DNA of 33,568 nt. Origin: an uncultured Lachnospiraceae bacterium. GTDB taxonomy: Bacteria > Bacillota > Clostridia > Lachnospirales > Lachnospiraceae. The notes under the pieces are model-generated. The model saw only the letters and a program-made list of their open reading frames with translations. It made no database searches and was not told the DNA's origin. This document shows, one piece after another, positions 1 through 33,568 of the stretch. The position numbers were made by a program, and so were the translations under genes. Each line of letters opens with the position of its first letter. Within the stretch, counting starts at the first letter, position 1. The stretch spans positions 1 to 33,568 of the forward strand of contig CACZTL010000068.1 of the NCBI GenBank assembly GCA_902784165.1. Reading direction: 5' to 3'.

Positions 1-82
1 AGTCCCTTTGTGTCAAAAATTAAGGCTTTATAAAGAAGTATTATCCCCGTTGACACAAAGGGACTGTCCCCGTTTGACACAC
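1..82. repeat. Composite copy of the GTGTGTCA palindromic repeat (left end of window)
   Basis: The window opens inside a repeat arm (1-15). About 28 nt of AT-rich DNA follow, then an overlapping arm ending in TTTGACACAC at 82. The core GGGACTGTCCCC lies at 61-72. This copy is rearranged compared with the clean 68-bp form at 12630. It lies downstream of rpmB, beyond that gene's terminator. Confidence 0.85.
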
Positions 83-109
83 TATTGACTGGTCGCTAAA
101 TAGTAACAA
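83..109 (-). repeat. Outer flank shared by several repeat copies
   Basis: Read on the minus strand, this segment (core TATTTAGCGACC, then GTCAATAG next to GTGTG) matches the sequence before the repeat at 24620 at about 29 of 32 positions. It matches the sequence before the repeat at 25310 at about 25 of 30. The mobile or duplicated unit may therefore be longer than the palindrome. Confidence 0.7.
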
Positions 110-128
110 AAAAACTGCCTTGCGGCAG
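108..128 (-). terminator. Intrinsic terminator of rpmB
   Basis: On the minus strand the stem CTGCC/GGCAG with a GCAA tetraloop is followed directly by seven T residues. It lies 20 nt after the rpmB stop codon. This is the classic Rho-independent form and differs from the neighbouring repeat, which has no T tract. Confidence 0.85.
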
Positions 129-147
129 CTTCTGTCAAATTATATAA

Positions 148-333
148 TTACGCTCTCTCTACTTTACCTGAGCGAAGGCAGGAAGTACATACATACATCT
201 TCTTTGTCTGTCCGTTCTGCTTTACGCGAACAGACTTGATATTCGGCTTCCAGACCTTGTTGGATCTTCTGTGGGAATGACTTACGGCAATACCGAAATG
301 AACACTCTTATCACAAACCTCACACTTTGCCAC
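148..333 (-). CDS. rpmB: 50S ribosomal protein L28
   Basis: This is ribosomal protein L28 of the large subunit, 61 aa, the usual size in Firmicutes. It starts MAKCEVCDK and keeps the L28 SHS..RRSNKVWKPN core. Four cysteines in two CxxC pairs (C4/C7 and C49/C52) mark the zinc-binding form. The start codon is GTG (331-333), supported by a strong AAGGAGGT ribosome site 9 nt upstream. The gene has its own near-consensus promoter (388-416) and its own terminator (108-128), so it is probably a single-gene unit even though ktrA lies upstream on the same strand. Identification is secure. Confidence 0.97.
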   Translation of the reverse strand: MAKCEVCDKSVHFGIAVSHSHRRSNKVWKPNIKSVRVKQNGQTKKMYVCTSCLRSGKVERA

Positions 334-387
334 TTCTAACGCACCTCCTTCTTTTGTAACTTAATCCGCGCAAAACACGTAAAAACG

Positions 388-416
388 ATTATAACAGACC
401 TATATACATTTGACAA
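388..416 (-). promoter_or_regulatory. Sigma-A promoter of rpmB
   Basis: The -35 TTGTCA (411-416) and -10 TATAAT (388-393), read on the minus strand, are separated by exactly 17 nt. It lies 55 nt upstream of the rpmB start codon, in the gap after ktrA. Confidence 0.85.
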
Positions 417-424
417 GTACTTTT

Positions 425-1090
425 TTACATACCCTTGTCAAGCATCTTAAACAATCTGTCAGAAGCTTCTTTGTCGGAAAGTATCTTCATATGATCTCCC
501 TCTCTGAACTTGTAATCAACAGGAGGCATTATATTCATTTCTTCATTTACAGAGGCCACGCCGATGATATTTATATCATAATTGGCATGGATATCAAGCT
601 CTTTTATGCTCTTTCCTATCCAGGAATTCAGTATAGGCACCTCATATATAGAGTAATCCTCATCCAACTCTATATAATCAAACACATGATTAGCGGAACA
701 GCGGGCAGCCAGATTAAAAGCAACATCCCTTTCGGGATATACGACCTCATCCGCTCCGTTCTTAAGCAGAAACTTTGACTGTATATCACGGCTTGCAAGA
801 CTTATGACATAATTTGCTCCGTACTCCTTTACGAGATTTGTGACCTCCAAGGAATTCTGGAAATTTTCTTTTATGGCAACGATCACGATATCAAAATTAT
901 TAAGACCAAGCGCCTGGAGCACATCCGGATTCGTACAGTCTCCGATGCGGGCACTTGTAACATCCGTAAAGAAATCCCTTATCTGTTCCTCATACTGGTC
1001 TATGATCATAATCTCATTATCCAGCTCCAAAAGCTTTCTGCAAAGATGCTGTCCGAACTTGCCCATTCCTATTATAAGTATAGACTTCAT
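425..1090 (-). CDS. ktrA: KtrA/TrkA-family potassium uptake regulatory subunit
   Basis: Cytoplasmic RCK subunit that gates the membrane channel KtrB and binds nucleotide. At 221 aa it matches single-RCK KtrA/KtrC rather than the double-length TrkA. The N-terminal Rossmann domain has the glycine motif GMGKFG (residues 8-13) and the acidic end of strand 2 (IIDQYEEQ). The C-terminal part (about 140-221) is the RCK-C domain (SWIGKSIKELDI ... FREGDHMKIL). The ATG has an AGGAG site. The gene follows ktrB by 26 nt on the same strand, so the two should be co-transcribed as a complete K+ uptake system. The assignment to KtrA rather than KtrC is by neighbourhood only. Confidence 0.92.
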   Translation of the reverse strand: MKSILIIGMGKFGQHLCRKLLELDNEIMIIDQYEEQIRDFFTDVTSARIGDCTNPDVLQALGLNNFDIVIVAIKENFQNSLEVTNLVKEYGANYVISLASRDIQSKFLLKNGADEVVYPERDVAFNLAARCSANHVFDYIELDEDYSIYEVPILNSWIGKSIKELDIHANYDINIIGVASVNEEMNIMPPVDYKFREGDHMKILSDKEASDRLFKMLDKGM

Positions 1091-1116
1091 GGCTTTTTCT
1101 CCTAAAAATTTAAAAA

Positions 1117-2463
1117 CTATCCGACATTTATCTTTTCTTCAGGATACTTGATATAGGGTTGCCGCCTGTTTCCTCTGAATGATACTGCAAATGTAACGGT
1201 TCCGACTCGTCCTGCAAACATAAGAAGCATAAGAACTATCCTTGATGCCGGAAGCAGCGACCGGGTAACACCTGCAGAAAGTCCTACCGTACCCATAGCG
1301 GAAAACACCTCGAGCAACAGATTATCCATCGGAAGCTTCTGCAATCCCGAGATAACAATAAGCGCTGCGATAATCATAGTTATATTCAGGCCAAATACCA
1401 TGGAGGCCATTTTTATATTTTCATCACCGATACGGCGCTTAAGGATGTGTACCCCCGTCGATCCGGTAAGATTTGACAATATATAGGCTCCCATAACTAT
1501 AACCGTTGTGGTCTTTATACCGCCCGCGGTAGATCCTGAATTTCCGCCGATGAACATAAGAAGGCAGGTCAAAAGCTTTCCGGCCTGAGTCATACTGTCA
1601 AGATCAACGGTATTAAACCCGGCAGTTCGCGGTGTAACCGCCGCAAACAGCGCTGACATAAATGCCTGCCCCGGCGACATATCGGCAAATAGATTATTAT
1701 GCTCAAATATAAGAAACAAAAGTGTTCCCACGCCTGTTAGTATCCCAAGCATGATAAGCACAACCTTGGAATGAAGAGTATATCTTTTAATCTTAAACTT
1801 GTACTTTAATATGTCATCCCATACAACAAAACCGAGTCCGCCAATTATGATAAGCCCCATGATCGTAAAATTAATCAACGGGTCATTATAAACATGGGTC
1901 AGAGATGAATAATGCTCATATCGACCCATCAGATCAAACCCCGCGTTACAAAATGCAGATATCGAATGAAAGACTCCGTACCATATTCCTCGCCCCACGC
2001 CCATCATGGGAATAAAACGGATAGACAAAAGAACCGCTCCTATCCCTTCGATAATAAATGTCCGTCGGAATATGCGCTGAAGCGACTTTACTATGCCGCC
2101 CAGCTCGAAAGCATATGTACTCTCCTGGATCATGTTCCGCATATTCAGACCGATTCGCTGCCCGAAAATCCTGTATACAAGGGCCGATATAGTGATAACA
2201 CCGAGTCCTCCGACCTGTATCATGCACAAAATAACTATCTGCCCGAACAGTGTCCAGTGGGAAAATGTATCCGCCACAACAAGTCCTGTCACGCACCCCG
2301 CGCTTACTGCGGTAAATAAAGCATCCATAAAGTGTGTGACCTGTCCTGTCTTGCTTGCAAAAGGAAGCATAAGAAGAAGAGCGCCTGACATTATTACTAT
2401 TATGAAGCCCATCGCCATGATCTGCGCGTGGGACAGACCTTTTTTTCTCCTGCTTACTGCCAT
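1117..2463 (-). CDS. ktrB: KtrB/TrkH-family potassium channel subunit
   Basis: Membrane ion-conducting subunit of the Ktr potassium uptake system, 448 aa, the normal KtrB size. The four pore-loop repeats of this superfamily are visible, each with its filter glycine: SAGCVTGL (about 54-61), SAFCNAGFDLMG, AAVTPRTAGFN and AMGTVGLSAG. Between them lie long hydrophobic helices. The N-terminus is basic (AVSRRKKGLSHAQ), as expected for a cytoplasmic end. The start ATG is at 2461-2463 with only a weak ribosome site. It lies directly upstream of ktrA, its partner. A decayed repeat half (2516-2534) lies between it and the preceding HAD gene. Confidence 0.93.
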   Translation of the reverse strand: MAVSRRKKGLSHAQIMAMGFIIVIMSGALLLMLPFASKTGQVTHFMDALFTAVSAGCVTGLVVADTFSHWTLFGQIVILCMIQVGGLGVITISALVYRIFGQRIGLNMRNMIQESTYAFELGGIVKSLQRIFRRTFIIEGIGAVLLSIRFIPMMGVGRGIWYGVFHSISAFCNAGFDLMGRYEHYSSLTHVYNDPLINFTIMGLIIIGGLGFVVWDDILKYKFKIKRYTLHSKVVLIMLGILTGVGTLLFLIFEHNNLFADMSPGQAFMSALFAAVTPRTAGFNTVDLDSMTQAGKLLTCLLMFIGGNSGSTAGGIKTTTVIVMGAYILSNLTGSTGVHILKRRIGDENIKMASMVFGLNITMIIAALIVISGLQKLPMDNLLLEVFSAMGTVGLSAGVTRSLLPASRIVLMLLMFAGRVGTVTFAVSFRGNRRQPYIKYPEEKINVG

Positions 2464-2515
2464 AGTTTATCCTGTATAATATACATTAGGGTTAATATTC
2501 AGCACTCACCCGGCT

Positions 2516-2534
2516 GTGTGTCAGATGGGGACAG
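2516..2534. repeat. Half copy of the palindromic repeat
   Basis: Nineteen bases identical to the left half-arm of the long copies (GTGTGTCAGATGGGGACAG), without the complementary arm. It begins 8 nt after the stop codon of the HAD gene. Confidence 0.75.
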
Positions 2535-2542
2535 CCTAACCA

Positions 2543-3385
2543 TCACCCCACCGCAGCAAGTATCTGATGCGGGTTATCTACCACCGGCACTCCGCCGCCG
2601 GCAACGAGTTCTTCTCTGTTTCTGAACCCCCAACTGACCAAAACACAATCCGTACCTGCTAACGCACAAAACTCACGGTCGACCTCACTGTCGCCCACAT
2701 ACAATATCCTTTTGATATCAGTATCCGTCTTGGAAGCAACAAAATGCATCATAGCGGGATCGGGCTTTCGGCTTAAAAAATCCGTTCTGCCCAGCGTGAA
2801 GTCCACCAACCCGGAAAAATAGTCATTCACTAAAAGCTTTGCGATATCATCGTTTTTGTTAGTTATAACCGCCGTCTTAAAGCCCGAGCTTTTAAGTCTC
2901 TCAAGAAGAGGCTTCATACCCTCGTACGCATATGTTTTATTGGCGGCATGCTCTTTATAAAATAACTTAAATTCATCATAACAGACTTCAAAATCACTTT
3001 CGGAAATATCCTCAGGTAAAAATGTATGCAACAGATTAATTACTCCGTTGCCGAGAACAGGAATAACCTGCTCCTCTGAAACCGATACCATTCCCTTTTT
3101 TTCCAAAACGTGATTAACCGCATCGGTAAGATCGCCTGCCGTATTAAGAAGCGTACCGTCCAAGTCAAAAAACACTGCATCGTATTTAGGTCTGAAGGTA
3201 GCAAGATCGTCATATTTGTTCCGGTCAACCGCTTGTGATGCAGGGCATGACGTATCAGAACAACCGGCGCAGCCGCCCTCCTGCTTTGAACAGCTACCGC
3301 CCACTTTTCTGTTTCCGCTGCGCGTCCACATAAACGCAGCGACAACTGCGGCCAGTATTATTATCGTTACTATTATCGTTCCCAT
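2543..3385 (-). CDS. HAD phosphatase (Gph-like) fused to a FeoB-associated-type Cys-rich membrane anchor
   Basis: Residues 70-280 form a complete HAD hydrolase of the phosphoglycolate-phosphatase type. Motif I DLDGT is at 74-78, motif II TNK at 175-177, the motif III lysine is in RKPDP (about 207), and motif IV YVGDS is at 229-233. The cap resembles Gph (VIPVLGNGVINLL). Residues 1-22 form one hydrophobic helix followed by basic SGNRK. A short segment follows with cysteines at 32, 39, 42 and 47 (GGCAGCSDTSC). This N-terminal part looks like the small FeoB-associated Cys-rich membrane proteins, normally separate 50-60 aa products. The enzyme is therefore probably tethered to the inner face of the membrane. 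The substrate is unknown. The start lies just after the gpmI repeat, and the ribosome site is weak. Confidence 0.8.
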   Translation of the reverse strand: MGTIIVTIIILAAVVAAFMWTRSGNRKVGGSCSKQEGGCAGCSDTSCPASQAVDRNKYDDLATFRPKYDAVFFDLDGTLLNTAGDLTDAVNHVLEKKGMVSVSEEQVIPVLGNGVINLLHTFLPEDISESDFEVCYDEFKLFYKEHAANKTYAYEGMKPLLERLKSSGFKTAVITNKNDDIAKLLVNDYFSGLVDFTLGRTDFLSRKPDPAMMHFVASKTDTDIKRILYVGDSEVDREFCALAGTDCVLVSWGFRNREELVAGGGVPVVDNPHQILAAVG

Positions 3386-3415
3386 GACAAAACCTGTAAA
3401 TCAATTAAGAGGAAA

Positions 3416-3450
3416 GTGTGTCAACAGGGGACTGTCCCCGATTGACACAC
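3416..3450. repeat. Short palindromic repeat abutting the gpmI stop
   Basis: Collapsed 35-bp form: GTGTGTCAA, core GGGGACTGTCCCC, TTGACACAC. It ends at the base next to the gpmI stop codon (3451-3453), with no spacer. There is no T tract, so it is not a classic terminator. Confidence 0.92.
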
Positions 3451-4998
3451 TTACATCTTCTTAACAAGCAGCGACCTTCCGGTCATCTCCTCCGGCTGAT
3501 CAAGCTCCATAATCTCCATAAGCGTAGGGATTATGTCACACAAGCCGCCCTTTCTGTCAGCAAGAGTATATTCCTCATCGTAATTAACAAGAATAAACGG
3601 AACGGGATTTGTGGTATGAGCAGTCATCGGTTCTCCGTTCTTTTCATTTATCATACACTCTGAGTTTCCGTGGTCGGCGCAAATAAACCAAGCTACATCC
3701 GAACCCTTAACCTCTTCATAAATCCTTCCGAGGCATACATCTATCTCCTCAATAGCAGCCTTTGCGGCTTCAAATACCCCCGTATGACCAACCATATCGG
3801 GATTTGCAAAATTTACTATGATCGCATCGTATTTTTTGCTCTTCAAAGCCTCTACCAGCTTATCGCATACCGTATCAGCGCTCATTTCAGGCTGAAGATC
3901 GTAAGTGGCAACTTTAGGAGACGGGACCAGTATACGATCCTCTCCTATATTCGGCTCCTCTACGCCACCGTTAAAGAAAAATGTTACATGAGCATATTTC
4001 TCTGTCTCGGCAAGTCTAAGCTGCTTAAGACCGTGCGTTGCAAGCACTTCCCCAAAGGTATTTGTCAGTGCTTCTTTTTTAAATGCAACAAGCTTATTAG
4101 GTATAAGAGGGTCATAATCGGTCATGCAGACAAATGTGATCTTTTTTCTCTCACCTCTGTCAAATCCGTCGAAATCATCGACGCAAAAAGCTCTTGTAAG
4201 CTCCCTGGCTCTGTCGGGTCTGAAATTATTAAAGATAAGAGAATCACCTTCCTCTACAACCGCAACCGGCTTTCCGTCTTCGCAGATAGCAGTAGGAAGA
4301 ATAAACTCATCAGTCACGCCCGCATCGTAAGACGCCCTAATTACCTCAAGAGGATCCTCACCCCTTTCGCCTTCTCCGAATGCCATAACCCTGTAAGCCT
4401 TCTCAACGCGATCCCATCTGTTATCTCTGTCCATGGAGTAATAACGTCCCGTGATGCTTGCAATCTTACCGACGCCTATGCTCTCCATCTCTTTAATAAG
4501 CTCACTCACATAACGGTCGGCTGACTCGGGATCGGTGTCACGTCCGTCGGCAAATACGTGAACAAAAACCTTTTTAAGTCCCTCCTGCTTCGCAAGCTTA
4601 AGTATCGCATAAAGCTGCTTGTTATAGCTGTGTACGCCCCCGTCAGAAACCAGCCCGCATATATGGAAAGCGGAATCATTTTCCTTACAGTTTTTTACAG
4701 CTGCAAGAAGCGCCTCATTTTCAAAAAAAGCGCCATCCTTTATAGCCTTGGATATCCTTGTCAGATCCTGATAAACTATACGACCTGCACCCATATTTAG
4801 ATGCCCGACCTCAGAATTTCCCATCTGCCCGTCGGGAAGCCCTACGGCCTCACCGCTGGCGTAACCGTACACAAAGGGATACTTTTCCTTAAGACTGTCA
4901 AAATTCGGCTTGTGCGCAGCCTCTATAGCATTGCCGGGACCTGCCGGCGCCATTCCGAAGCCGTCAAGTATGGTAAGCAGAACCGGTCTCTTGCTCAT
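3451..4998 (-). CDS. gpmI: 2,3-bisphosphoglycerate-independent phosphoglycerate mutase
   Basis: Interconverts 3- and 2-phosphoglycerate in glycolysis; Mn-dependent, cytosolic. At 515 aa it has the family's usual length. The metal-binding TILDGFG motif (D12) and the catalytic serine S62 in MGNSEVGHLNMGAG are present. So are the FADGRDTDP segment and the C-terminal metal-site motifs NFANPDMVGHTG and ICADHGNSE. The ATG is preceded by GGAGGA. It lies 21 nt after tpiA and completes the pgk-tpiA-gpmI unit. A short palindromic repeat follows the stop immediately. Confidence 0.97.
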   Translation of the reverse strand: MSKRPVLLTILDGFGMAPAGPGNAIEAAHKPNFDSLKEKYPFVYGYASGEAVGLPDGQMGNSEVGHLNMGAGRIVYQDLTRISKAIKDGAFFENEALLAAVKNCKENDSAFHICGLVSDGGVHSYNKQLYAILKLAKQEGLKKVFVHVFADGRDTDPESADRYVSELIKEMESIGVGKIASITGRYYSMDRDNRWDRVEKAYRVMAFGEGERGEDPLEVIRASYDAGVTDEFILPTAICEDGKPVAVVEEGDSLIFNNFRPDRARELTRAFCVDDFDGFDRGERKKITFVCMTDYDPLIPNKLVAFKKEALTNTFGEVLATHGLKQLRLAETEKYAHVTFFFNGGVEEPNIGEDRILVPSPKVATYDLQPEMSADTVCDKLVEALKSKKYDAIIVNFANPDMVGHTGVFEAAKAAIEEIDVCLGRIYEEVKGSDVAWFICADHGNSECMINEKNGEPMTAHTTNPVPFILVNYDEEYTLADRKGGLCDIIPTLMEIMELDQPEEMTGRSLLVKKM

Positions 4999-5019
4999 AT
5001 CATTCCTCCGTTTTTTGAA

Positions 5020-5763
5020 TTACACATTTACAATATCCGCAAATTCTTCCTTAAGGGAAGCGCTTCCGATAAGTCCGCCGTCTATATCCTCACAAGCTAC
5101 AAGCTCTGCAGCATTACCTGCATTCATACTGCCGCCGTAAAGCACCGGTATAACATCGGAAACAGACCCGCCGTATATGCTTTTTAATGTCTCCCTTACG
5201 CAGGCGCAAATCTCCTGTGCCTGATCGCTTGTAGCTGTTTTTCCCGTACCTATAGCCCAGATAGGCTCGTAAGCAACAATGCACTTAGCTGCATCTTTGG
5301 CAGAAATACCGTCAAACGCGCTCTTTATCTGTCTTTCTATGTGAGCTGCCGCTGTACCGGCTTCTCTTATCTCAAGAGACTCTCCGCAGCAAAGGATAGG
5401 TATAAGACCCTTCTCCACCGCCTTCTTAAGCTTAAGATTTATCAACTCATCACTCTCGCCGAATATATCGCGACGCTCGGAATGACCTATGATTACCGCT
5501 TTTGCACCTGCACAGATAAGCATATCAGCTGATACCTCTCCGGTAAATGCACCCTTTTCTTCGTAGTAAAAATTCTGGGCGCCTACGCAAACATCGGTGT
5601 CTTTAAGAACTTCCACGGCCTCCGGTATACATATGAGCGGAGGGAACACAAACACTCTTGCATCTGCCCGGCTTATTCTTTCCTTTACGGACTCCAGAAA
5701 CTCCCTCGTTTCCGCCGGAGTCTTATTCATCTTCCAGTTTCCTGCAATAACCCTGCTTCTCAT
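5020..5763 (-). CDS. tpiA: Triosephosphate isomerase
   Basis: Interconverts dihydroxyacetone phosphate and glyceraldehyde 3-phosphate. It is 247 aa, the standard TIM-barrel length. The catalytic set is complete: N9 and K11 in AGNWKMN, H94 in IIGHSERR, E166 in [16 protein letters not shown]. The phosphate-binding YGGSMNAGN (209-217) and GGLIGSASL (229-237) are also present. Its ATG overlaps the pgk stop by four bases (ATGA), so translation is coupled to pgk. gpmI follows 21 nt downstream. Confidence 0.97.
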
Positions 5764-7058: not shown

Positions 7059-8084
7059 TTATAATGATGCAAGGTACTTTATGGTTCTTACCATCTGTGC
7101 GGTATATGAGTTCTCGTTATCATACCAGGCAGCTACCTCTACATGTGTCCTTCCGTCACCTGAAGGAATACACATAGTGAGCGTAGCATCAAAGAGTGAA
7201 CCATAGCTCATGCCGATGATATCACTTGATACTATCTGCTCCTCTGTATATCCGAAGGATTCGGTAACTCTTTCCTTCATTCCTGCATTAATCTCTTCAG
7301 CAGTAATCTTTCCGTCAACTATGGCAAAGAGGTTTGTAATGGAGCCTGTAGGCGTAGGCACACGAAGCGCTGAGCCGTTAAGCTTGCCGTTTAACTCAGG
7401 TATTACAAGACCTATAGCCTTTGCTGCACCTGAAGATGAAGGAATGATATTAAGAGCAGCTGCTCTTGAACGTCTTAAGTTACCTTTTCTTTGTGAGCTG
7501 TCAAGAAGCTGCTGGTCACCTGTATAAGCATGAATCGTCTTCATGATACCGGACTCGATGGGTGCCATCTCATTTAACGCCTTAGCCATAGGCGCAAGAC
7601 AGTTTGTTGTGCATGAAGCAGCTGAGATAACTACATCCTCGGGAGTAAGTGTCTCATGGTTTACGTTATACACGATGGTCTTAAGATCATCACCTGCCGG
7701 TGCTGAGATAACAACCTTCTTTGCGCCTGCCTGTATATGAGCCATGGACTTTTCTTTAGAAGTATAGAATCCTGTGCACTCAAGCACTACATCTACTTCG
7801 TCTGCGCCCCAGGGAATATCCGCAGCATCTCTCTCGCCGTGAATCTTGATGGTCTTACCGCGAACAGTGAGTGTATTTGCCTCATCATCTGCGGTTACCT
7901 CATCCTCCTTTCCGAGTTCAACAAATCTTGCCTGTGTTGAATCGTACTTTAAAAGATAAGCGAGCATGCTCGGCTTCGAAAGATCATTGATCGCTACGAT
8001 CTCAAAACCCTCTGCATCAAACATCTGCTTAAACGCGAGCCTGCCGATACGACCAAAGCCGTTAATTGCTACTTTTACTGACAT
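7059..8084 (-). CDS. gapA: Type I glyceraldehyde-3-phosphate dehydrogenase
   Basis: NAD-dependent oxidation and phosphorylation of glyceraldehyde 3-phosphate. The open frame extends upstream to 8126, but the start was set at 8084 ([14 protein letters not shown]). There the Rossmann motif sits at its usual place and GGAGG lies 8 nt upstream. The result is 341 aa. NGFGRIGR is at 8-15, D34 favours NAD, the catalytic C158 is in [12 protein letters not shown] and the base H185 is in HAYTGDQ. It has its own promoter (8131-8159) and leads the glycolytic cluster gapA-pgk-tpiA-gpmI. Confidence 0.97.
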
Positions 8085-8312: not shown

Positions 8313-9155
8313 ATGGATATGAAGCCTATGATAGATAATTTACCGAAATTTTATGATACACATTTACACAGCTGCTTTTCCTTCGACTCCGAAGCCGATC
8401 CCGAGGATGAAATCAGGAAGGCAAAGGCTATCGGTCTTACGGGTATGTGCTTCACGGATCACAATGATTTCGATTACAAACAGCCCGACGACAGCGCTGC
8501 ATTTGCCTTGGATTTTGATAAATATATCAATGCTTTAACAGATATTCGCAAAAATCACGCCGGCGACTTTGAGATTCTTATCGGGCTTGAACAGGGGCTT
8601 ACCATGCCGGCTGCCGGGCGTATAGATAATTACGATCCAGAAAAAAAGCTTGATTTTATCATCGGTTCTACTCATGTGGTAGACTCGCTTGACCCGTATT
8701 ACCCGGAATTCTGGGAAGATCATGACGCATATTCGGGAGTCAGAAGATACTATGAAAATATATATGATTGTGTAAATGCAATTAAAAATTTTGACGTTTA
8801 CGGTCATCTTGATTACATAACACGATATCTTCCAAAGCAATACAAAGATTTAAGTCATGATGAGCTGACACCGCTTGATTTGGTATGCGAGATACTTAAA
8901 AAACTGATATATGACGGCAAGGGTATCGAGATAAATACTGCCGGTTGGAGAAAAGGCAATCACTCCAATCCGTCTGTGCTTATACTCAGGGAATATAAAA
9001 GACTCGGCGGTGAGATCATCACGACAGGATCCGATGCGCACTGCTGCGCGCATATCGGAGACCAAATTAAAAAAGCGCACTCTGTGCTCTCAGAGTGCGG
9101 TTTTAAGTATGCCTGCGTATTTAAAAAACGCAAACCTGAGTTTTATAATCTGTAG
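8313..9155 (+). CDS. PHP-domain phosphatase, histidinol-phosphatase (HisJ/HisK) family
   Basis: One of only two plus-strand protein genes. It is a 280-aa PHP-fold metal-dependent phosphoesterase. The metal-binding motifs appear in order: DTHLHSCFS, FTDHNDF, GLEQGL, IGSTHVVD, YGHLDYITRY, IEINTAGW and GSDAHCCAHIG. It resembles HisJ-type histidinol phosphatases, but no other histidine gene is adjacent (hisB lies 24 kb away), so the substrate is not certain. AAAGGA lies only 2 nt before the first ATG. The second ATG at 8319 (MKPMIDNLPK) has an 8-nt spacing and may be the true start. The stop TAG overlaps the next repeat by one base. Confidence 0.88.
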   Translation: MDMKPMIDNLPKFYDTHLHSCFSFDSEADPEDEIRKAKAIGLTGMCFTDHNDFDYKQPDDSAAFALDFDKYINALTDIRKNHAGDFEILIGLEQGLTMPAAGRIDNYDPEKKLDFIIGSTHVVDSLDPYYPEFWEDHDAYSGVRRYYENIYDCVNAIKNFDVYGHLDYITRYLPKQYKDLSHDELTPLDLVCEILKKLIYDGKGIEINTAGWRKGNHSNPSVLILREYKRLGGEIITTGSDAHCCAHIGDQIKKAHSVLSECGFKYACVFKKRKPEFYNL

Positions 9156-9213
9156 TGTGTCGGTGGCAGGGGGGATGGTTCCGTGTTAATGGTGACAGTC
9201 CCCGTTGATACAT
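9155..9213. repeat. Decayed palindromic repeat between convergent genes
   Basis: Recognisable ends GTGTGTC and GTTGATACAT, with a GACAGTCCCCG core half, but many substitutions. It fills the gap between the stop of the PHP gene and the stop of the 104-aa gene and touches both. Confidence 0.65.
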
Positions 9214-9548: not shown

Positions 9549-9571
9549 GTGGTCAACGGGGCCGTTCACAC
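9549..9571. repeat. Shortened, decayed palindromic repeat after metY
   Basis: Resembles the short form with internal deletions (GGTCAACGGGG, CCGTTCACAC). It begins 9 nt after the metY stop codon. Assigned by position and partial identity only. Confidence 0.45.
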
Positions 9572-9580
9572 AGTTGTTAT

Positions 9581-11049: not shown

Positions 11050-11081
11050 GTGTGTCAGTAGAACCGTCCCCTCTGACACAC
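11050..11081. repeat. Palindromic repeat, GGTTCT core type
   Basis: The ends GTGTGTCA and TGACACAC enclose the second core type (minus strand GGGACGGTTCTACTGACAC). It begins 6 nt after the stop of the 185-aa gene. A further fragment, GGTGTCAAAGGG, precedes it at 11039-11050. Confidence 0.85.
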
Positions 11082-12629: not shown

Positions 12630-12697
12630 GTGTGTCAGATGGGGACAGTCCCTTTGTGTCAGTCCTGACACAAAGGGACTGTCCCCATCTGACACAC
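12630..12697. repeat. Full-length palindromic repeat, perfect 32-bp arms
   Basis: Arms at 12630-12661 and 12666-12697 are exact reverse complements around the loop GTCC. Each arm contains a smaller palindrome, GGGACAGTCCC, so the structure is nested. It begins 9 nt after the ligA stop. This is the reference copy for the long form. Confidence 0.95.
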
Positions 12698-14704: not shown

Positions 14705-14723
14705 GTGTGTCAGGTGGGGACAG
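14705..14723. repeat. Half copy of the palindromic repeat after rluF
   Basis: GTGTGTCAGGTGGGGACAG without its complementary arm. It ends 2 nt from the stop codon of the pseudouridine synthase gene. Confidence 0.75.
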
Positions 14724-14725
14724 AC

Positions 14726-15506: not shown

Positions 15507-15530
15507 TCACTATTTAGCGTTCAAACATAA
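15507..15530 (+). repeat. Partial outer flank before the repeat at 15531
   Basis: Contains CTATTTAGCG, then a diverged stretch directly joined to GTGTGTCA. It is a weaker match to the flank at 24593-24619, identical mainly in TATTTAGCG. Confidence 0.45.
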
Positions 15531-15598
15531 GTGTGTCAGATGGGGGCAGTCCCTTTGTGTCAAGACTGACACAAAGGGACTGTCCCCATCTGACACAC
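15531..15598. repeat. Full-length palindromic repeat before tRNA-Arg
   Basis: Arms 15531-15562 and 15567-15598 with loop AGAC; one mismatch (GGGGGCAG against GGGGACAG). It lies between the divergent starts of rluF and the tRNA, so it is one of the few copies not next to a stop codon. Confidence 0.93.
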
Positions 15599-15667
15599 TT
15601 AAATAATATCATACGACACGCCCGGATAAATTGTACTTGCGTTATCATTCGTTTTAATGTAACATAC

Positions 15668-15711: not shown

Positions 15712-15784
15712 GTGCATGTGGCTCAGTGGATAGAGCGTTCGCCTCCGGAGCGAAAGGTCGTGGGTTCGACTCCCACCATGCACG
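15712..15784 (+). tRNA. tRNA-Arg, anticodon CCG
   Basis: The cloverleaf is complete. The acceptor stem is GTGCATG/CATGCAC, and the D arm is GCTC..GAGC (15721-15736). The anticodon stem TTCGC/GCGAA holds the loop CTCCGGA, so the anticodon is CCG and reads CGG. The T arm is GTGGG/CCCAC with loop TTCGACT, and the discriminator base is G. CCA is not encoded. A run of seven T residues follows directly and may end transcription. The gene points toward rho (tail to tail) and has a full-length repeat upstream. Confidence 0.96.
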
Positions 15785-18969: not shown

Positions 18970-19011
18970 GTGTGTCAATGGGGACGGTTCTGCTGACACA
19001 CTTTGACACAC
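18970..19011. repeat. Palindromic repeat, GGTTCT core type, with an extra end
   Basis: GTGTGTCA, core GGGGACGGTTCTGC, TGACACAC (18970-19001), directly followed by a second TTTGACACAC end (19002-19011). It suggests overlap of two copies. It lies between the terminator of the secreted protein gene and the SPFH gene. Confidence 0.85.
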
Positions 19012-20306: not shown

Positions 20307-20434
20307 TTATTTTTAGGATATATAACAGCGAGAGCTGAACTTCATGTCCCACCAAAGCCGCCTGACATCAAGGCTGAGGGGTGATTTTAAACATTTTGTG
20401 AAGCATTGTTATTAAATTATCTTTATTTATACAT
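20307..20434. other. Non-coding stretch with a possible structured element
   Basis: The 317-base gap between the secreted protein gene and sdhB holds the promoter (20278-20306), this segment and a long repeat (20435-20510). Within it, 20328-20396 is unusually GC-rich and can fold: CAGC/GCTG around GAGA, and an imperfect stem joining CCCCTCAGCC with GGCTTTGGTGGG on the minus strand. No known riboswitch was recognised. It lies upstream of the mapped promoter, so it would not be in that mRNA. Confidence 0.3.
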
Positions 20435-20510
20435 AAAGTGTGTCAAGATGGGGACAGTCCCTTTGTGTCAGTCCTGACACAAAGGGACTGTCCCCATCTT
20501 GACACACTTT
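20435..20510. repeat. Longest palindromic repeat, perfect 36-bp arms
   Basis: Arms 20435-20470 and 20475-20510 are exact complements around GTCC, extended at both ends by AAA/TTT. It begins 5 nt after the stop codon of sdhB. Confidence 0.95.
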
Positions 20511-20515
20511 ATCCC

Positions 20516-21239: not shown

Positions 21240-21270
21240 GTGTGTCAAAAGGGATGGTCTACTGACACAC
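21240..21270. repeat. Palindromic repeat overlapping the end of the flavoprotein gene
   Basis: GTGTGTCA and TGACACAC ends with a mutated GGTTCT-type core. The stop codon of the flavoprotein (21245-21247) and its last codons lie inside this repeat. Confidence 0.88.
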
Positions 21271-22862: not shown

Positions 22863-22894
22863 GTGTGTCAAAGGGAACGGTTCTACTGACACAC
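22863..22894. repeat. Palindromic repeat, GGTTCT core type, abutting the cytochrome gene stop
   Basis: GTGTGTCA, core GGGAACGGTTCTAC, TGACACAC. It touches the stop codon at 22895-22897 with no spacer and lies inside the operon, upstream of the flavoprotein start. Confidence 0.9.
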
Positions 22895-23949: not shown

Positions 23950-23973
23950 ATTTAAGGATTCCTTGTTTAGCAA

Positions 23974-24007
23974 GTGTGTCAACGGGGACAGTCCCCGGTT
24001 GACACAC
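23974..24007. repeat. Short palindromic repeat after the FMN lipoprotein gene
   Basis: GTGTGTCAAC, core GGGGACAGTCCCC, GTTGACACAC. It ends one base from the stop codon at 24009-24011 and lies between the first two genes of the operon. Confidence 0.93.
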
Positions 24008-24008
24008 T

Positions 24009-24592: not shown

Positions 24593-24619
24593 TGGTTATT
24601 ATTTAGCGACCGGTCAATA
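24593..24619 (+). repeat. Outer flank of the repeat at 24620
   Basis: Contains TTATTTAGCGACCGGTCAATA joined directly to GTGTGTCA. It is nearly identical to the inverted flank at 83-109 and partly to 25286-25309. Confidence 0.7.
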
Positions 24620-24687
24620 GTGTGTCAAATGGGGACAGTCCCTTTGTGTCAGTCCTGACACAAAGGGACTGTCCCCATTTGACACAC
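24620..24687. repeat. Full-length palindromic repeat, perfect 32-bp arms
   Basis: Arms 24620-24651 and 24656-24687 around GTCC. It lies in the divergent gap between the operon promoter and the DUF4190-like gene. Its right end contains TTGACA (24679-24684), a perfect -35 hexamer pointing toward the DUF4190-like gene, with a weak TACAAA 16 nt downstream. Confidence 0.95.
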
Positions 24688-24800
24688 TTAATAAAACATT
24701 TACAAAAATCAATAAATGTTATAAAATTAACGTGTAACTGATTTTACTTTATTCAAGCAGCAAGTACATTTACGGTTATCTTCTAAAAGGGGTGAAAAAT

Positions 24801-25184: not shown

Positions 25185-25198
25185 TTTTATATAGAAGA

Positions 25199-25233
25199 GT
25201 GTGTCTGATGGGGACAGTCCCCGTCTGACACAC
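25199..25233. repeat. Short palindromic repeat after the DUF4190-like gene
   Basis: GTGTGTCTGA, core GGGGACAGTCCCC, TCTGACACAC. It lies 14 nt after the stop codon and just before the real terminator. Confidence 0.9.
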
Positions 25234-25241
25234 TTTAACGC

Positions 25242-25285: not shown

Positions 25286-25309
25286 TTACTGTTTTTCAAT
25301 CAGTCAATA
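25286..25309 (+). repeat. Outer flank of the repeat at 25310
   Basis: GTTACTGTTTTTCAATCAGTCAATA joined to GTGTGTCAAG, about 25 of 30 positions like the inverted flank at 83-109. Confidence 0.55.
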
Positions 25310-25344
25310 GTGTGTCAAGCGGGGACTGTCCCCATTTGACACAC
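25310..25344. repeat. Short palindromic repeat abutting the XRE gene stop
   Basis: GTGTGTCAAG, core GGGGACTGTCCCC, TTTGACACAC. One base separates it from the stop codon at 25346-25348. Confidence 0.92.
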
Positions 25345-25345
25345 T

Positions 25346-27666: not shown

Positions 27667-27697
27667 TGTCAGACGGGTATAGTCCCTAATGACACAC
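27667..27697. repeat. Decayed palindromic repeat abutting the permease gene stop
   Basis: TGTCAGACGGG, then AGTCCC, then TGACACAC. One base separates it from the stop codon at 27699-27701. Confidence 0.7.
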
Positions 27698-27698
27698 T

Positions 27699-28946: not shown

Positions 28947-28963
28947 ATATCTCTCCCCCTTTC

Positions 28964-30622
28964 TTAATATACCGGCATATCGCCGTAAAGATCCTCAGCC
29001 GAGCCTTCTTTTGTCTTTGCTCCGGACTTCACATCGTTTCCGTAGGGAAATGCAAGCATATCATCTGCCTCAAGACCGCTCTTTATCTGCGTATATGATC
29101 CCCAAAGAGACTTGCCGATTTTAACGCTTCGCCTCTCAAGCAGACCATTTTCTCCCTTTACATACACATAAGAATCCGCGCCGTCTCTTCTTATAAAAGC
29201 ATTCATGATGTATACGCCACCGTCCGACTCCGATTCCGGCTGATAAGATATCTCCATATACGAATCATCCTTAAGGCTTACATCACCTGATAATTTCACC
29301 TTAAAAGGATAATAAGTTACATTGGTATTGCCGTCGCCGTATGAAAAGTAAGAGTTGGCATCTTCGCCTGTTGCGGGCTTGTCGGATATCTCAACAATCT
29401 CGCCCTCGTAGCTGCCGCCGCCCGAGTCAGTCATGCTGTAGGAATCAACGTATACGATATCACCAACATGCACATTTTCAAGGTCAAACTCATTTATGGT
29501 ACCGGTAACAAAGTAAGCGCCGCCGGCGCTAAGCTCTACCACTGCCTCACCCGAATTTCCCGCCTCCTGGGCGGTTCTTACCTTTGTGACTACGCCGTCT
29601 ATGGATGCGCGCACCACGCTGTCGTCAGTTTCAAGCTTTTTTTGCTCATACTCATTACGCGCAAGCGCTATACTTCGTCTGAGCTCACTTATTTCCGCCG
29701 ACTTCTCGGCTCTCATCTTCACGAGCTCCTCCTGCGTATACTCGGAGCCGGTCGACTCCTCATAGCTTTCCGGCTGCTCCTCATAGCTTTCTATATCCTC
29801 CGGAATATACGGCTCAAAAAGACCTATTCCGGTGATTTCAGAGCCTGCCACATCTATGCGAAGCCCATGGCTTGCCGTAATTGGTGCATTAAGCGCATTT
29901 TCTTCACGGTTTATGACCACAACATATACGCTTCCGTCCTCGTAGTCCGAAAGATCAGCCTCTTCCTCTGTTTGTGCCTCCTCTTCAACGGTCTCGCTGT
30001 CAGCCTCTGCGTCTTCACTGCCGTCCTGCGCCTCTGATGCCTTTGCTTTAGAGAGCAGCTCCTTAAGAAGTGAGCCGTTTATGCTGTCAAACTCATCAAA
30101 CATGTAAATATAAGGATCATCTGTCGTTCCGCTTCCTCTGATAAGCCTCGGTGTTTCCGCAGGCTTATACTCTACAGTGTAAGATGGCTCAACCACATAC
30201 GTCGAATGAGGCGCCATATTATTAAGGTCGGCAAGCTCCTTCTCGGCCTGACTTAAATCCAGCTCGAGTCTTCCCACCTTCACGCGCGCCCTTTCAACCT
30301 CTACCTCGGTAAGTGTCGTATCATAAGAAAGAAGAACATCTCCCTTTTTAACCTCCTGCCCCTCCGTCACGTCTACCGAGCTTACAGTCTGCGTTCCCGA
30401 AAGAAATATTTTCTGAAGACCTTCAGCCGACAGATTTCCCGAAGTAACTGACATATCGCTTCCCGTATCGGTCATCGCAAGTGCCTCAAGAGGGTAAACG
30501 ACTACGGGCTTTGCGCTCGCATTTCTGTAGATGAAAAGACCGCCGATTACGGCTCCTGCTATGGCCGCCGGAATCGTGATACCAAGCGCTATTTTTTTTG
30601 CATTTTTATTCACGGGTATCAC
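28964..30622 (-). CDS. HlyD/MacA-type adaptor with a large acidic insertion
   Basis: Membrane-anchored adaptor subunit of 552 aa, long for this family (usually 370-450). A basic N-terminus and one transmembrane helix (10-31) come first. The first lipoyl half follows (SSVDVTEGQEVKKGDVLLSYD), then a coiled-coil strand (VERARVKVGRLELDLSQAEKELADL). An insertion of about 160 residues (about 135-300) replaces the tip of the coiled coil. It holds GSGTTDDPYIY and long Asp/Glu runs. The second coiled-coil strand (EKSAEISELRRSIALARNEYEQK) and the barrel domains follow. The gene overlaps the ATPase gene by 17 nt. In Gram-positive cells there is no TolC for the tip to contact, so the insertion may have another partner. 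Confidence 0.85.
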   Translation of the reverse strand: MIPVNKNAKKIALGITIPAAIAGAVIGGLFIYRNASAKPVVVYPLEALAMTDTGSDMSVTSGNLSAEGLQKIFLSGTQTVSSVDVTEGQEVKKGDVLLSYDTTLTEVEVERARVKVGRLELDLSQAEKELADLNNMAPHSTYVVEPSYTVEYKPAETPRLIRGSGTTDDPYIYMFDEFDSINGSLLKELLSKAKASEAQDGSEDAEADSETVEEEAQTEEEADLSDYEDGSVYVVVINREENALNAPITASHGLRIDVAGSEITGIGLFEPYIPEDIESYEEQPESYEESTGSEYTQEELVKMRAEKSAEISELRRSIALARNEYEQKKLETDDSVVRASIDGVVTKVRTAQEAGNSGEAVVELSAGGAYFVTGTINEFDLENVHVGDIVYVDSYSMTDSGGGSYEGEIVEISDKPATGEDANSYFSYGDGNTNVTYYPFKVKLSGDVSLKDDSYMEISYQPESESDGGVYIMNAFIRRDGADSYVYVKGENGLLERRSVKIGKSLWGSYTQIKSGLEADDMLAFPYGNDVKSGAKTKEGSAEDLYGDMPVY

Positions 30623-31286
30623 CTCCCGTAAGAACTCCGTCGCGGATATACATTATCTTGCCTGCATGCTTTGCAACCTCCAAGTCGTGAGTAATCATGA
30701 TTATGGTCGAGCCCGCGTCATGAAGCTTCCTAAATATCTCAAGCACCACCTTGCCTGACTCGGAATCAAGAGCTCCCGTGGGCTCATCGGCAAGAAGGAG
30801 CTTAGGCTCTCCGACAATCGCTCTTGCTATAGCAACTCTCTGGCACTGACCACCCGAAAGCTGATCGGGTCTGTGATCTAAACGATCCTCAAGCCCAACC
30901 TTTTTTAATGCCTCGGCCGCCATTTCTCTTCTTTTTTGCTTGGGAATACCTCCGTACATAAGAGGCAGCGCAGTGTTATCAAGGGCAGTCAGCTTGGGCA
31001 TAAGATGAAAGGACTGGAATATAAAGCCTATATCCTTGTTTCTCACGTCCGCAAGCTTATTGTCGCTGCTGTTTTTCATATCGTTTCCGTCAAATATATA
31101 ATCACCCGAGGTAGGCACATCAAGAAAACCCAGTAAATTCATAAGCGTCGACTTACCCGACCCGGAAGGTCCCATAACCGCCAGGTATTCGCCTTCATTT
31201 ACACGCAGGTTCACATTTTTTAAAATGTGAACAACAGACTTACCCATAGTGAAGTCCTTGCACACATCCTTCATCTCAACTATCAA
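30606..31286 (-). CDS. MacB/LolD-type ABC transporter ATPase
   Basis: Cytoplasmic ATPase of 226 aa. Walker A is GPSGSGKST (39-47), the signature LSGGQ is at 143-147, Walker B is LLLADE (163-168) and the H-loop is in MITHD. The start is TTG at 31284-31286, with GGAGGTG 9 nt upstream. It overlaps the stop of the preceding adaptor gene by four bases (TTGA), so translation is coupled. A later ATG at 31274 would lose this spacing. Its 3' end overlaps the next adaptor gene by 17 nt. It works with the MacB-type permease two genes downstream. Confidence 0.93.
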   Translation of the reverse strand: MIVEMKDVCKDFTMGKSVVHILKNVNLRVNEGEYLAVMGPSGSGKSTLMNLLGFLDVPTSGDYIFDGNDMKNSSDNKLADVRNKDIGFIFQSFHLMPKLTALDNTALPLMYGGIPKQKRREMAAEALKKVGLEDRLDHRPDQLSGGQCQRVAIARAIVGEPKLLLADEPTGALDSESGKVVLEIFRKLHDAGSTIIMITHDLEVAKHAGKIMYIRDGVLTGGDTRE

Positions 31287-32638
31287 TTCGTTTGCACCTC
31301 CCCCGTTTCAGAAGAAGTATCAGCTCCGCTCACATCCGGTGATACAAACATCGGATTCATCATCCCGGGAGAATATCCGCCTGTGCTCCCCCCTGCGGGC
31401 ATAACGCTTCCTCCGTCATCAATTCCCGCATCGGGACTTCCTGCATTTGTTTCTTCAAATGTGATATCAGAGGGAGCATCAGTTGAGAAATCAAACTCAA
31501 CACACTTCATTCCGGCTTTAAGCGAATCATCGGGCGTCGCTATAAAATCCTCAGCGCTGAGTCCTTCTTTCACCTCATATGCATCCATTTCGGAATCATA
31601 TGTACCGAGTGTAACAGCCCTCTTTTCGAGCCTTTCATTGGCATCACGGGCCCATACCCATGCAGAGGTTTGGGCGTCATTTATATAATACGAAGGCAGC
31701 ATCATCGTATTTTCGTCTGAATCTCCCTGACCGTAGTCGGGTTCTATATACACATGCTGACCTATGATAAATCCTTCAGTGTTATCAAGCTCGGCATAAA
31801 AAGGATACTTACTTGACGAGGTCGTATCATCTTCCGACATGCCGTACATATCGCTGCTGCCGGACGATGACACAGGGTTTTTGAAGTCTATCGTCTTTAT
31901 GCTTGCTCTTTTTAACGTATCATCTATACGCGAGCGGATTATAACCTCCATGCCCTCATAGAGACTTGTCCTGTTAGTTTCATTTACATAGCCCTTAGCG
32001 CGAAAAGCGCTTGTTTTTCTTAAAACTATGAATGCTGCTTCCTCTGTATTTCCTGAGTTATCGGCATTCTCGTCGTTGTTTATCGACAGGACGGTTCCTT
32101 CATCCGGTGACTTTACCTCAAGGTTATTTAGTGTATTTTGAAGACTTTCGAGCTCTGCCTGCTTGGACTTCACGGACAGATTGGTTTCGGTTATGTCCGC
32201 ATTTAACTCCTGGATCTGAAGGGTGTAGCTTGTCCTCGTATCTGCATCAAGCTGCCCCCCGTTTATCTCGCCCTGAAGCGTGGCTATCTCAGACTGCTTG
32301 GATGATACCGATGCCTGAAGTTGTTCTATCTCGATCTGTGTTTTTTCGATATTTAACTCGGTCTGCTCCTTGTCATATCGGAAAAGAACCTGATCCTTGT
32401 TTACGGTATCCCCCACCTTGACAAGCACCTCTGCTACCTTCTTTTCCTGATCCTTTTCGACCTTTGTCTCGCTTCCCGATTCTATTACTCCGGCGTATCT
32501 TTCTACATTGGTCATAGAGCCGATCCCGCAAATGTACGCCACTGATTCAACCGTAGCTGTTTTTGAGTTATCCCCTCCGCAGCCGGCTATCGCTGCCGCG
32601 CCTATCGCAGAGGAAAGCAGGATTATTATTTTCTTCAT
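31283..32638 (-). CDS. HlyD/MacA-type adaptor lipoprotein
   Basis: First gene of the exporter operon, 451 aa. The signal peptide ends in the lipobox IAGC (C20), so it is lipid-anchored, unlike the second adaptor. A lipoyl half (VAEVLVKVGDTVNKDQVLFRYD) comes next, then a long two-stranded coiled coil (about 90-175, rich in Q, S and E). The second lipoyl half (LEVKSPDEGTVLSI) and barrel domains follow. The C-terminus is Gly/Ser/Pro-rich and probably disordered. The GGAGG site is well placed. A promoter lies at 32721-32749, and a palindromic repeat lies in its untranslated leader. Confidence 0.87.
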   Translation of the reverse strand: MKKIIILLSSAIGAAAIAGCGGDNSKTATVESVAYICGIGSMTNVERYAGVIESGSETKVEKDQEKKVAEVLVKVGDTVNKDQVLFRYDKEQTELNIEKTQIEIEQLQASVSSKQSEIATLQGEINGGQLDADTRTSYTLQIQELNADITETNLSVKSKQAELESLQNTLNNLEVKSPDEGTVLSINNDENADNSGNTEEAAFIVLRKTSAFRAKGYVNETNRTSLYEGMEVIIRSRIDDTLKRASIKTIDFKNPVSSSGSSDMYGMSEDDTTSSSKYPFYAELDNTEGFIIGQHVYIEPDYGQGDSDENTMMLPSYYINDAQTSAWVWARDANERLEKRAVTLGTYDSEMDAYEVKEGLSAEDFIATPDDSLKAGMKCVEFDFSTDAPSDITFEETNAGSPDAGIDDGGSVMPAGGSTGGYSPGMMNPMFVSPDVSGADTSSETGEVQTN

Positions 32639-32664
32639 ATCATAGCCTCCGTTTTTATAAATAT

Positions 32665-32695
32665 ATGTGTCACAAGGACGATTCTACTGACACAC
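32665..32695. repeat. Palindromic repeat, GGTTCT core type, in the exporter operon leader
   Basis: ATGTGTCA, core AAGGACGATTCTAC, TGACACAC; slightly diverged. It lies between the predicted promoter and the start codon, so it would be transcribed in the 5' leader. This is unusual for the family here. Confidence 0.8.
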
Positions 32696-32720
32696 TGTCG
32701 CTATACTCAATCAATCTTAC

Positions 32721-32749
32721 ATTCTAATATAAAATAAGTGTATATACAA
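32721..32749 (-). promoter_or_regulatory. Promoter of the ABC exporter operon
   Basis: -35 TTGTAT (32744-32749) and -10 TAGAAT (32721-32726), minus strand, 17-nt spacer, about 83 nt upstream of the adaptor lipoprotein start. Confidence 0.6.
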
Positions 32750-32780
32750 CTTTTTACATAAAAAAATCACACACCCGTCT

Positions 32781-32840
32781 ATATAAAAATACCCCACCGG
32801 CGTTTTTTATCGCAAAACATCGGCAGGGTATTTATTTTTT
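32781..32840 (-). terminator. Intrinsic terminator of hisB
   Basis: On the minus strand AAATACCC pairs with GGGTATTT, and inner TGCCG pairs with CGGTG. A run of T residues (TTTTTATA) follows. A-rich sequence on the other side would make it work in both directions. Confidence 0.75.
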
Positions 32841-32859
32841 ATACTTTTTATTGTTAAAA

Positions 32860-32880
32860 GGGAACGGTTCAATTCTGCAC
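32860..32880. repeat. Decayed fragment of a GGTTCT-type repeat after hisB
   Basis: GGGAACGGTTC followed by a degraded TTCTGCAC end. It lies 3 nt from the hisB stop. It is recognised mainly by the GGGAACGGTTC core, which the copy at 22863 also has. Confidence 0.55.
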
Positions 32881-32883
32881 TAA

Positions 32884-33477
32884 TCAGATCTTACCCTTGG
32901 TACTGAGTACATCCTCGATCCTTGCATTGACCGAAACAGCCCCCATGAGCGCCTTGGCAAATGCCTTATAGCAGGCTTCGCAAATGTGATGATCGTTTTC
33001 ACCGCTAAGCTGTCTTAAGTGCAGGTTCATCTCTGCCGAATATGACACAGCATAGAAAAACTCCTTTACCATCTGTGTATCGTAATCTCCCATCGTCGGC
33101 GTCTTAAATGTCACATCCATAACAAGATACGGTCTTCCGGAAAGATCCACGGCGGATAAAACAAGAGCCTCATCCATCGGCAGGATAAAATAACCGTACC
33201 GGTTGATTCCCTTCTTATCACCAACAGCCTCCTTTATCGCCTGCCCAAGGACTATCCCCGTATCTTCTATGAGATGATGCGAGTCAACATGCAGATCTCC
33301 GGTCGCTTTTACCTTAAGGTCGAACAATCCGTGCCTTGCAAAGCTGTCAAGCATATGATCAAGGAAGCCGACTCCCGTGCTTATATCTGCTTTACCGGTA
33401 CCGTCAAGGTTTATTTCTATAGTTATGTCCGTTTCTTTTGTTTTTCTGCTTATCTTTGAGATCCTGTTTTCTGACAT
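32884..33477 (-). CDS. hisB: Imidazoleglycerol-phosphate dehydratase
   Basis: Sixth step of histidine synthesis, removing water from imidazole glycerol phosphate. The 197 aa form the single-domain IGPD, without the phosphatase half found in enteric HisB. Metal-binding signatures are present: GVGFLDHMLDSFARHG, DLHVDSHHLIEDTGI, and the C-terminal ENDHHICEACYKAFAKAL. AGGAG precedes the ATG. No other histidine gene is next to it within the window; upstream genes may lie beyond the right edge. A terminator follows at 32781-32840. Confidence 0.97.
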   Translation of the reverse strand: MSENRISKISRKTKETDITIEINLDGTGKADISTGVGFLDHMLDSFARHGLFDLKVKATGDLHVDSHHLIEDTGIVLGQAIKEAVGDKKGINRYGYFILPMDEALVLSAVDLSGRPYLVMDVTFKTPTMGDYDTQMVKEFFYAVSYSAEMNLHLRQLSGENDHHICEACYKAFAKALMGAVSVNARIEDVLSTKGKI

Positions 33478-33513
33478 GAATTATCTCCTATTTACTATTT
33501 CCCTTGGTTAAAA

Positions 33514-33568
33514 GTGTGTCAGGCGGGGACGGACCAAATGTGTCAGATGGGGACAGTCCCTTTGTGTC
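33514..33568. repeat. Tandem repeat fragments at the right end of the window
   Basis: A partial GGTTCT-type left half (GTGTGTCAGGCGGGGACGG) is followed directly by a left arm of the long form that runs off the window at its centre. It lies upstream of hisB. The last bases match the first 15 bases of the window apart from a one-base offset. Confidence 0.85.

Follow-up and report, generated by a model that had tools for sequence, protein, structure and literature searches.

Palindromes in the window

The window, that is the whole stretch of DNA analysed here (G000:C68:1-33568), comprises 33,568 nucleotides (nt) of contig CACZTL010000068.1 from an uncultured Lachnospiraceae bacterium, whose assembly amounts to 1,604,347 bases in 101 contigs and is 88.95% complete. 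Its intergenic gaps harbor many copies of one family of palindromes, which are very probably non-autonomous mobile elements akin to repetitive extragenic palindromes (REPs) and to REPINs, of the TIRtron type, served by their own Y1/HUH transposase. These palindromes can fold into hairpins when single-stranded, the congeners of the host lack them, and one intact Y1/HUH gene lies between two of them.

An earlier note, made from the letters of the window alone, had listed about 21 copies. When the sequence was read at all 21 coordinates and the forms were sorted by eye, 19 copies were recognisable and those at 9549 and 32860 appeared weak. The same note stated that nearly half of the gaps hold a palindrome, which agrees with the 12 of 24 window gaps of at least 20 nt in which one was found (greedy call of open reading frames, ORFs). 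Its perfect arms of 32-36 bp could be retrieved at 12630, 20433 and 24619, with the correction that the arm at 20433 is longer (39 nt), and the arms at 15528 are only 97% identical. Long palindromes with two cores thus lie at 12630, 15528, 20433 and 24619 (arms of 33, 35, 39 and 34 nt, respectively) and short ones with a single core at 3416, 23974, 25199 and 25310. A GGGGACGGTTCT-type core between GTGTGTCA and TGACACAC ends is present at 11050 and 18970, with degenerate versions at 21240, 22863 and 32665. Copies that are halved, degenerate or truncated by a contig end are located at 1, 2516, 9155, 14705, 27667 and 33514, both window ends (1 and 33,568) cutting through an element. The copies are the following, with no strand assigned; differences in length are those of the orthologous stretch in the congeners G001, G002 and G003 relative to the window.

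1..83, two-core element truncated by the contig start, centre non-symmetric
2516..2534, half copy made of a tag and the beginning of a core
3415..3451, short one-core palindrome (folded)
9155..9205, degenerate copy; orthologous gap just 10 nt shorter in G003
9549..9575, weak, doubtful copy
11050..11081, GGGGACGGTTCT-type copy flanked by GTGTGTCA and TGACACAC
12630..12697, long two-core palindrome, perfect 33-nt arms (folded); orthologous gap 59 nt shorter in G002, 75 nt longer in G003 (unrelated sequence)
14705..14725, half of an element; the orthologous gap has 5 nt more in G003 and 76 nt less in G002
15528..15601, two-core palindrome whose 35-nt arms are 97% identical; orthologous gaps 89 nt shorter in G002, 88 nt shorter in G003
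18970..19011, GGGGACGGTTCT-type copy with an additional TGACACAC (folded)
20433..20512, two-core palindrome, perfect 39-nt arms
21240..21270, degenerate GGTTCT-type copy; 24-25 nt shorter between aligned flanks in G002 and G001
22863..22894, degenerate GGTTCT-type copy; orthologous gaps 46 nt shorter in G002, 41 nt shorter in G001
23973..24008, one-core palindrome (folded); orthologous stretches 41 nt shorter in G002, 39 nt shorter in G001
24619..24688, two-core palindrome, perfect 34-nt arms
25198..25234, one-core palindrome
25309..25345, one-core palindrome
27667..27697, degenerate copy; orthologous gap 30 nt longer in G003 and element-free
32665..32695, degenerate GGTTCT-type copy
32860..32875, weak, doubtful remnant
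33514..33568, tandem half copy, then a two-core copy truncated by the contig end

Anatomy and folding of the elements

The ends AGTGTGTCA and TGACACACT are common to all three forms of the element. The short form is a single unit, composed of the tag TGTGTCA, a spacer of 2-5 nt and the core GGGGACWGTCCC, then the complement, in the order tag, spacer, GGGGACWGTCCCC, spacer, tag. Two units with their cores face to face, as in a REPIN, make up the long form, whose middle reads TTTGTGTCA-loop-TGACACAAA. The third form carries GGGGACGGTTCT between the same tags. A sample of 31 stretches (440,711 bases, window included), chosen partly for their listed matches, contained 140 element clusters, 52 of which consist of two facing tag-core units, the inverted arrangement by which REP pairs and REPINs are recognised, and 10 strict copies of the third form. 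The latter is similar to the repeats found beside many related enzymes and, on account of this resemblance, may be the older form. Some copies are nested, a short element occupying the centre of a long one (L112:8312-8427 and L114:4875-4977).

Folded as DNA, the long form adopts a single hairpin of -41.6 kcal/mol (z -13.2), and the four other elements that were folded reached z -4.0 to -9.9 (five altogether, four of them from the window). The arms of the long copies co-vary: in 39 of 49 strict copies the left and right spacers are reverse complements of each other, compared to a mean of 6.4 and a maximum of 14 in 2000 shuffles. In one-core copies the effect is weak, since the 5 matched pairs among 26 (1.9 expected) are reached by 151 of 5000 shuffles. 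The two bases outside the tag are also complementary more often than in shuffles (42 vs 26.6 and 34 vs 20.6, n = 62). Spacers that do not match resemble, by eye, the spacers of other copies rather than the product of point changes, which makes exchange between copies likely.

The near-identity of the long copies suggests a recent spread, a similarity that is partly selected for because the search patterns of the arm analysis exclude decayed copies. Arms that match within a copy and differ between copies suggest either hairpin intermediates that would be re-matched or the amplification of several matched source variants. Recent spread and a putative re-matching of the arms in the hairpin are both compatible with the data.

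Number and placement in the genome

The exact core GGGACWGTCCC occurs 434 times genome-wide and its reversed pattern once, far above the 100 palindromic copies that serve to recognise REPs and REPINs. Similarly, the tag pair TGTGTCA-N(8-28)-TGACACA was found 366 times and its reversed control 0 times, overlapping matches in one long element being counted repeatedly. Given these two contrasts and fold z values of -4.0 to -13.2, the palindromes are not due to chance. The 140 clusters of the sample include 181 exact cores, a density 1.5 times that of the genome (434 in 1,604,347), and the estimate of about 340 elements genome-wide was scaled from these 140 since the sampled stretches are richer in cores by that factor. 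Contig ends fall inside an element in 9 of 35 cases examined, compared to 127 of 4000 random windows; the end of the window, which also lies in an element, was missed by the rule of the script. Because the assembly is incomplete and contigs often end in elements, some copies may be missed by the count.

The elements are mostly extragenic, 136 of 140 not lying more than 60 nt inside a complete ORF of the greedy call. They are found in tandem (72 of 196), convergent (14 of 26) and divergent (9 of 22) gaps.

The Y1/HUH transposase

The genome encodes a single Y1_Tnp gene, intact and 247 amino acids long, at C37:7088-7831 on the minus strand, and palindromes flank it at approximately C37:7008-7080 and 7909-7957. 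The elements on both sides carry GGGGACAG on one of their two strands, in agreement with the GGGGWSAS consensus that characterizes TIRtrons. In a BLAST search with the whole locus the gene was found once and its palindromes at dozens of places, so that, in this 88.95% complete assembly, a single-copy gene is flanked by its own repeat family, as is typical of REP-associated tyrosine transposases (RAYTs). The earlier note had supposed that a RAYT-like enzyme acts in trans from elsewhere in the genome, and this gene supports the proposal; hundreds of copies together with a linked Y1 gene were both found, and the arm was not confined to the window.

The protein scores 49.6 bits against the Pfam Y1_Tnp model (cut-off 23). 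In an alignment of 39 sequences H60, H62, Y119 and N123 never vary and P124 hardly does; profile, alignment and model thus concur on the HUH and Y---NP motifs in a Y1 fold that are expected of a RAYT enzyme. The AlphaFold2 model (pLDDT 91.9, pTM 0.75) has as top match in the PDB 4er8, the E. coli RAYT with a REP hairpin (E 1.9e-7); a sequence-based search of solved structures gave no match at E 0.001. At E values up to 0.1, candidate helix-turn-helix (HTH) domains of the HTH_23 and HTH_28 families were detected in 15 and 6, respectively, of 39 family members. The protein itself only matched MarR_2 (E 0.014, below cut-off), and its C-terminus is helical in the model.

Among the best 80 matches listed, which may exclude the genome itself, the closest relatives belong to Clostridia RGIG6928 (53%), Butyrivibrio and other Lachnospiraceae. 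A collection of plasmids yielded 13 records with relatives of the enzyme, all below 60% identity. In G048, a genome of the same order, the REP-transposase model matches nine times in 2.0 Mb (e.g. L007, L027), yet GGGGACWGTCCC is only present 1/1. At its start, contig C37 bears a run of ACA trinucleotide repeats (L112:1-60).

Restriction to one lineage

The palindromes are dense and limited to one lineage. As a coarse indication, the TypA protein of the host is most similar to those of Acetoanaerobium, Subdoligranulum and Monoglobus (60-64%) among the records of the plasmid collection, as would suit a member of the Clostridia. Matches to the core amount to 229/232 in the genome itself and to 0-1 in ten congeners, and tag pairs to 0 or 1 in the latter. 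Only 10 of 60 relatives, the genome itself excluded, present GGGGACWGTCCC, with a maximum of 7/6 in the family member G025. The REP-transposase model similarly found no match in eight of the ten congeners and weak partial ones (33 and 27 bits) in two, none being full-length.

For 19 elements of the window both flanks were sought in the fetched loci of congeners; in 11 cases no single locus contained the pair, and eight were comparable. The congener stretch between the flanks is shorter in both relatives compared at 15528 (88 and 89 nt), 22863 (46 and 41), 23974 (41 and 39) and 21240 (24 and 25), and in one of two at 12630 (59 nt). Exact cores and tag pairs were both absent from the 30 congener loci L139-L168, including those with gaps of mixed lengths.

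Enzyme and repeat pairs in other hosts

Relatives of the enzyme are often accompanied by repeats of their own. We examined 54 of 80 retrieved enzyme loci, and 42 of them have an inverted repeat (score of at least 13) across the gene, 32 with a GGGG core, a pattern wider than GGGGWSAS. We then counted GGGGWCNGWCCC in 21 hosts, picked as nearest or because the core had already been noticed, and six of them gave per-strand counts of 150/152, 82/84, 82/81, 63/65, 41/37 and 11/12. The motif TGWGTCA-N(1-4)-GGGGAC, present 270/275 times in the genome under study, was found 93/102 and 33/39 times in the hosts of loci L035 and L032, and 2/3 and 1/0 times in two more.

Beside related Y1 genes of other Clostridia and Coriobacteriia (L038, L040, L051, L056, L104, L107) there are palindromes proper to each, with different arms and cores of the GGGAC type or GGGGTC; they are 62 nt long in Oribacterium (L038) and in tandem in L104.

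Proposed mechanism and alternative explanations

According to the mechanism that we propose, the enzyme would bind the hairpin in single-stranded DNA, probably on the lagging-strand template, and its tyrosine would cut at or near the hairpin foot. A copy would then be pasted elsewhere without target duplication, the transposase gene itself staying in place. The enzyme probably entered the genome by horizontal transfer, and the swarm is probably younger than the split from the congeners, as suggested by the lack of a full-length match in the latter and by the nearest relatives found, which belong to Lachnospiraceae and other Clostridia. More broadly, it is possible, if rather doubtful, that a separate class of REPs exists in Bacillota and Actinomycetota, with a conserved GGGGAC core and host-specific arms, spread on the scale of REPs by HTH-bearing TIRYTs regarded so far as unproductive, and whose hairpin arms would be re-matched at each move, keeping the palindromes perfect while their sequence changes.

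Several observations weigh against mobile elements served by this enzyme. Movement, cutting and binding by the enzyme are predictions from sequence, and its score against the NCBIfam model of REP-associated transposases (NF047646) is 61.1 bits, under the cut-off of 80 that was exceeded in only 2 of 61 genomes searched. No clear inverted repeat flanks 12 of the 54 enzyme relatives, 15 of the 21 hosts have only 0-9 matches per strand to the GGGGWCNGWCCC core (reversed control 0-6), and the TGWGTCA-GGGGAC motif is absent from 7 of 12 hosts. The sequence of the arm was tried as a marker of enzyme clades and rejected, the 3 changes that it requires on the tree being equally low in all 500 shuffles. 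Gap length is contrary or uninformative at 9155 (10 nt shorter), 14705 (5 longer, 76 shorter) and 27667 (30 longer), and one relative is 75 nt longer at 12630, with unrelated sequence. Insertion boundaries are moreover approximate, since the comparison rests on one genome of this species.

Other origins for the repeats were weighed. Replication and recombination of the host alone, through template switching in palindromes, with an adjacent Y1 gene that is incidental or now inactive, would account for arms that co-vary within copies and for the excess complementarity of the two bases outside the tag, which it predicts. However, it leaves unexplained the dispersal to hundreds of sites, the restriction to the sole genome among 11 congeneric ones with a full-length match to the enzyme, and the repeat-and-enzyme pairs of other hosts, and we regard it as improbable. 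A role in the host as terminators, attenuators, uptake or chromosome-organising sites, with selection and not a transposase having multiplied these functional motifs, would suit strong hairpins that are mostly intergenic. It is highly improbable for repeats that are absent from ten congeners, occur in all three gap contexts and lie in frame inside genes in four cases; in addition, the window matches Rfam at gathering scores by a single tRNA (15712-15784).

The least credible origin in our eyes is that of miniature inverted-repeat transposable elements (MITEs) mobilised by a conventional (DDE) transposase with the same inverted repeats. The elements do resemble MITEs in general, being short, mostly non-coding, bounded by inverted repeats and numerous, but no target duplication was seen, direct repeats of 2-8 nt at their ends not being commoner than in shuffles (n = 62), and the transposase between the repeats is of the Y1 family, other transposase families not having been searched genome-wide.

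Relation to known repeat systems

TIRtrons are Y1 genes between inverted repeats with GGGGWSAS, in families described as moderately abundant in the passages of the original report that concern them (PMC3733652, Di Nocera 2013), where TIRYTs are also suggested to be less productive than RAYTs (PMC3733652). The relevant part of a later classification assigns 20 of 26 TIRYTs to TnpAY1 subclass 2.1, with HTH_23, HTH_28 and Bac_DnaA_C domains, and states that REP-like sequences were not found by its authors for this subclass (PMC6006769). Judged by their core consensus, the present elements fit the TIRtron/TIRYT branch, which has received less study. They share with it a Y1 gene between GGGGWSAS inverted repeats (here GGGGACAG), repeats that are single and dimeric, and, in some relatives of the enzyme, a candidate C-terminal HTH_23/HTH_28-like domain; they differ by their number, which reaches the hundreds in 1.6 Mb, by the nesting of some copies and by co-varying arms.

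The chemistry of REP cutting and the definition of REPINs are given in portions of PMC8266576 and PMC8049555, the latter of which counts 69 to 235 REPINs per genome among 300 E. coli (PMC8049555). As in REPs and REPINs with RAYTs of groups 2 and 3, there is a single-copy Y1 gene flanked by repeats, inverted pairs, a mainly intergenic position and a fold nearest to 4er8, whereas the GTAG/CGTC foot is lacking, the palindromes are long and near-perfect, and the enzyme has a C-terminal extension. Canonical GTAG/CGTC REPs were rejected on this ground, as GTAG occurs once, CGTC once and GTGG not at all in the 6-nt flanks of 62 elements (124 flanks), which equals background. The IS200/IS605 insertion sequences also combine an HUH-Y catalytic fold with hairpin-forming DNA adjoining the gene; here, by contrast, the palindromes alone are repeated, and not the gene together with its ends. 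PMC3733652 also describes intragenic REPs and the palindromic elements of Rickettsia, which are likewise palindromes located in ORFs and translated into protein residues; the likeness considered is one of placement and translation, and concerns few of the 140 copies sampled here.

Among the papers listed by a literature search, none described this GGGAC palindrome family, most subscription journals lying outside its scope; those that contained the core motif did not concern repeats, as judged by title and the start of the abstract, and no mention of such repeats was found in the portion of PMC6912079 covered by a term search. This is a TIRtron-type, REPIN-like family with its own Y1 enzyme, a dense and productive relative of a known repeat class that is confined to one lineage. 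If the proposed reading is true, a branch that the cited passages call less productive (PMC3733652) or devoid of REP-like repeats (PMC6006769) would join the active repeat makers. Natural pairs of enzyme and repeat in several genera would allow testing how arms and core are recognised by a Y1 enzyme, and the co-variation of the arms offers a lead, from sequence only, on passage through a repaired hairpin. In practice, such repeats seem to break assemblies and to become part of some proteins.

Copies inside genes

Four sampled copies lie in frame in identifiable genes:

L112:8316-8422, FAD-dependent protein
L116:663-735, U32 peptidase
L169:4936-4975, RACo-like activator
L176:5140-5199, DnaX

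The 4 of 140 elements placed inside ORFs by the greedy call form a different set, made of three of these four genes and a doubtful 98-amino-acid ORF, the frame of the U32 peptidase exiting its stretch. The copy in the FAD-dependent protein is absent from the orthologues of 9 of 10 congeners, the nine that the script picked up and aligned there. A clean insertion was rejected at this position, because in the two nearest congeners the linker is longer and unrelated. The copy is translated as about 36 residues within this variable linker, and the palindromes of DnaX (L176:5140-5199) and of the FAD-dependent protein (L112:8316-8422) both sit in apparent linkers.

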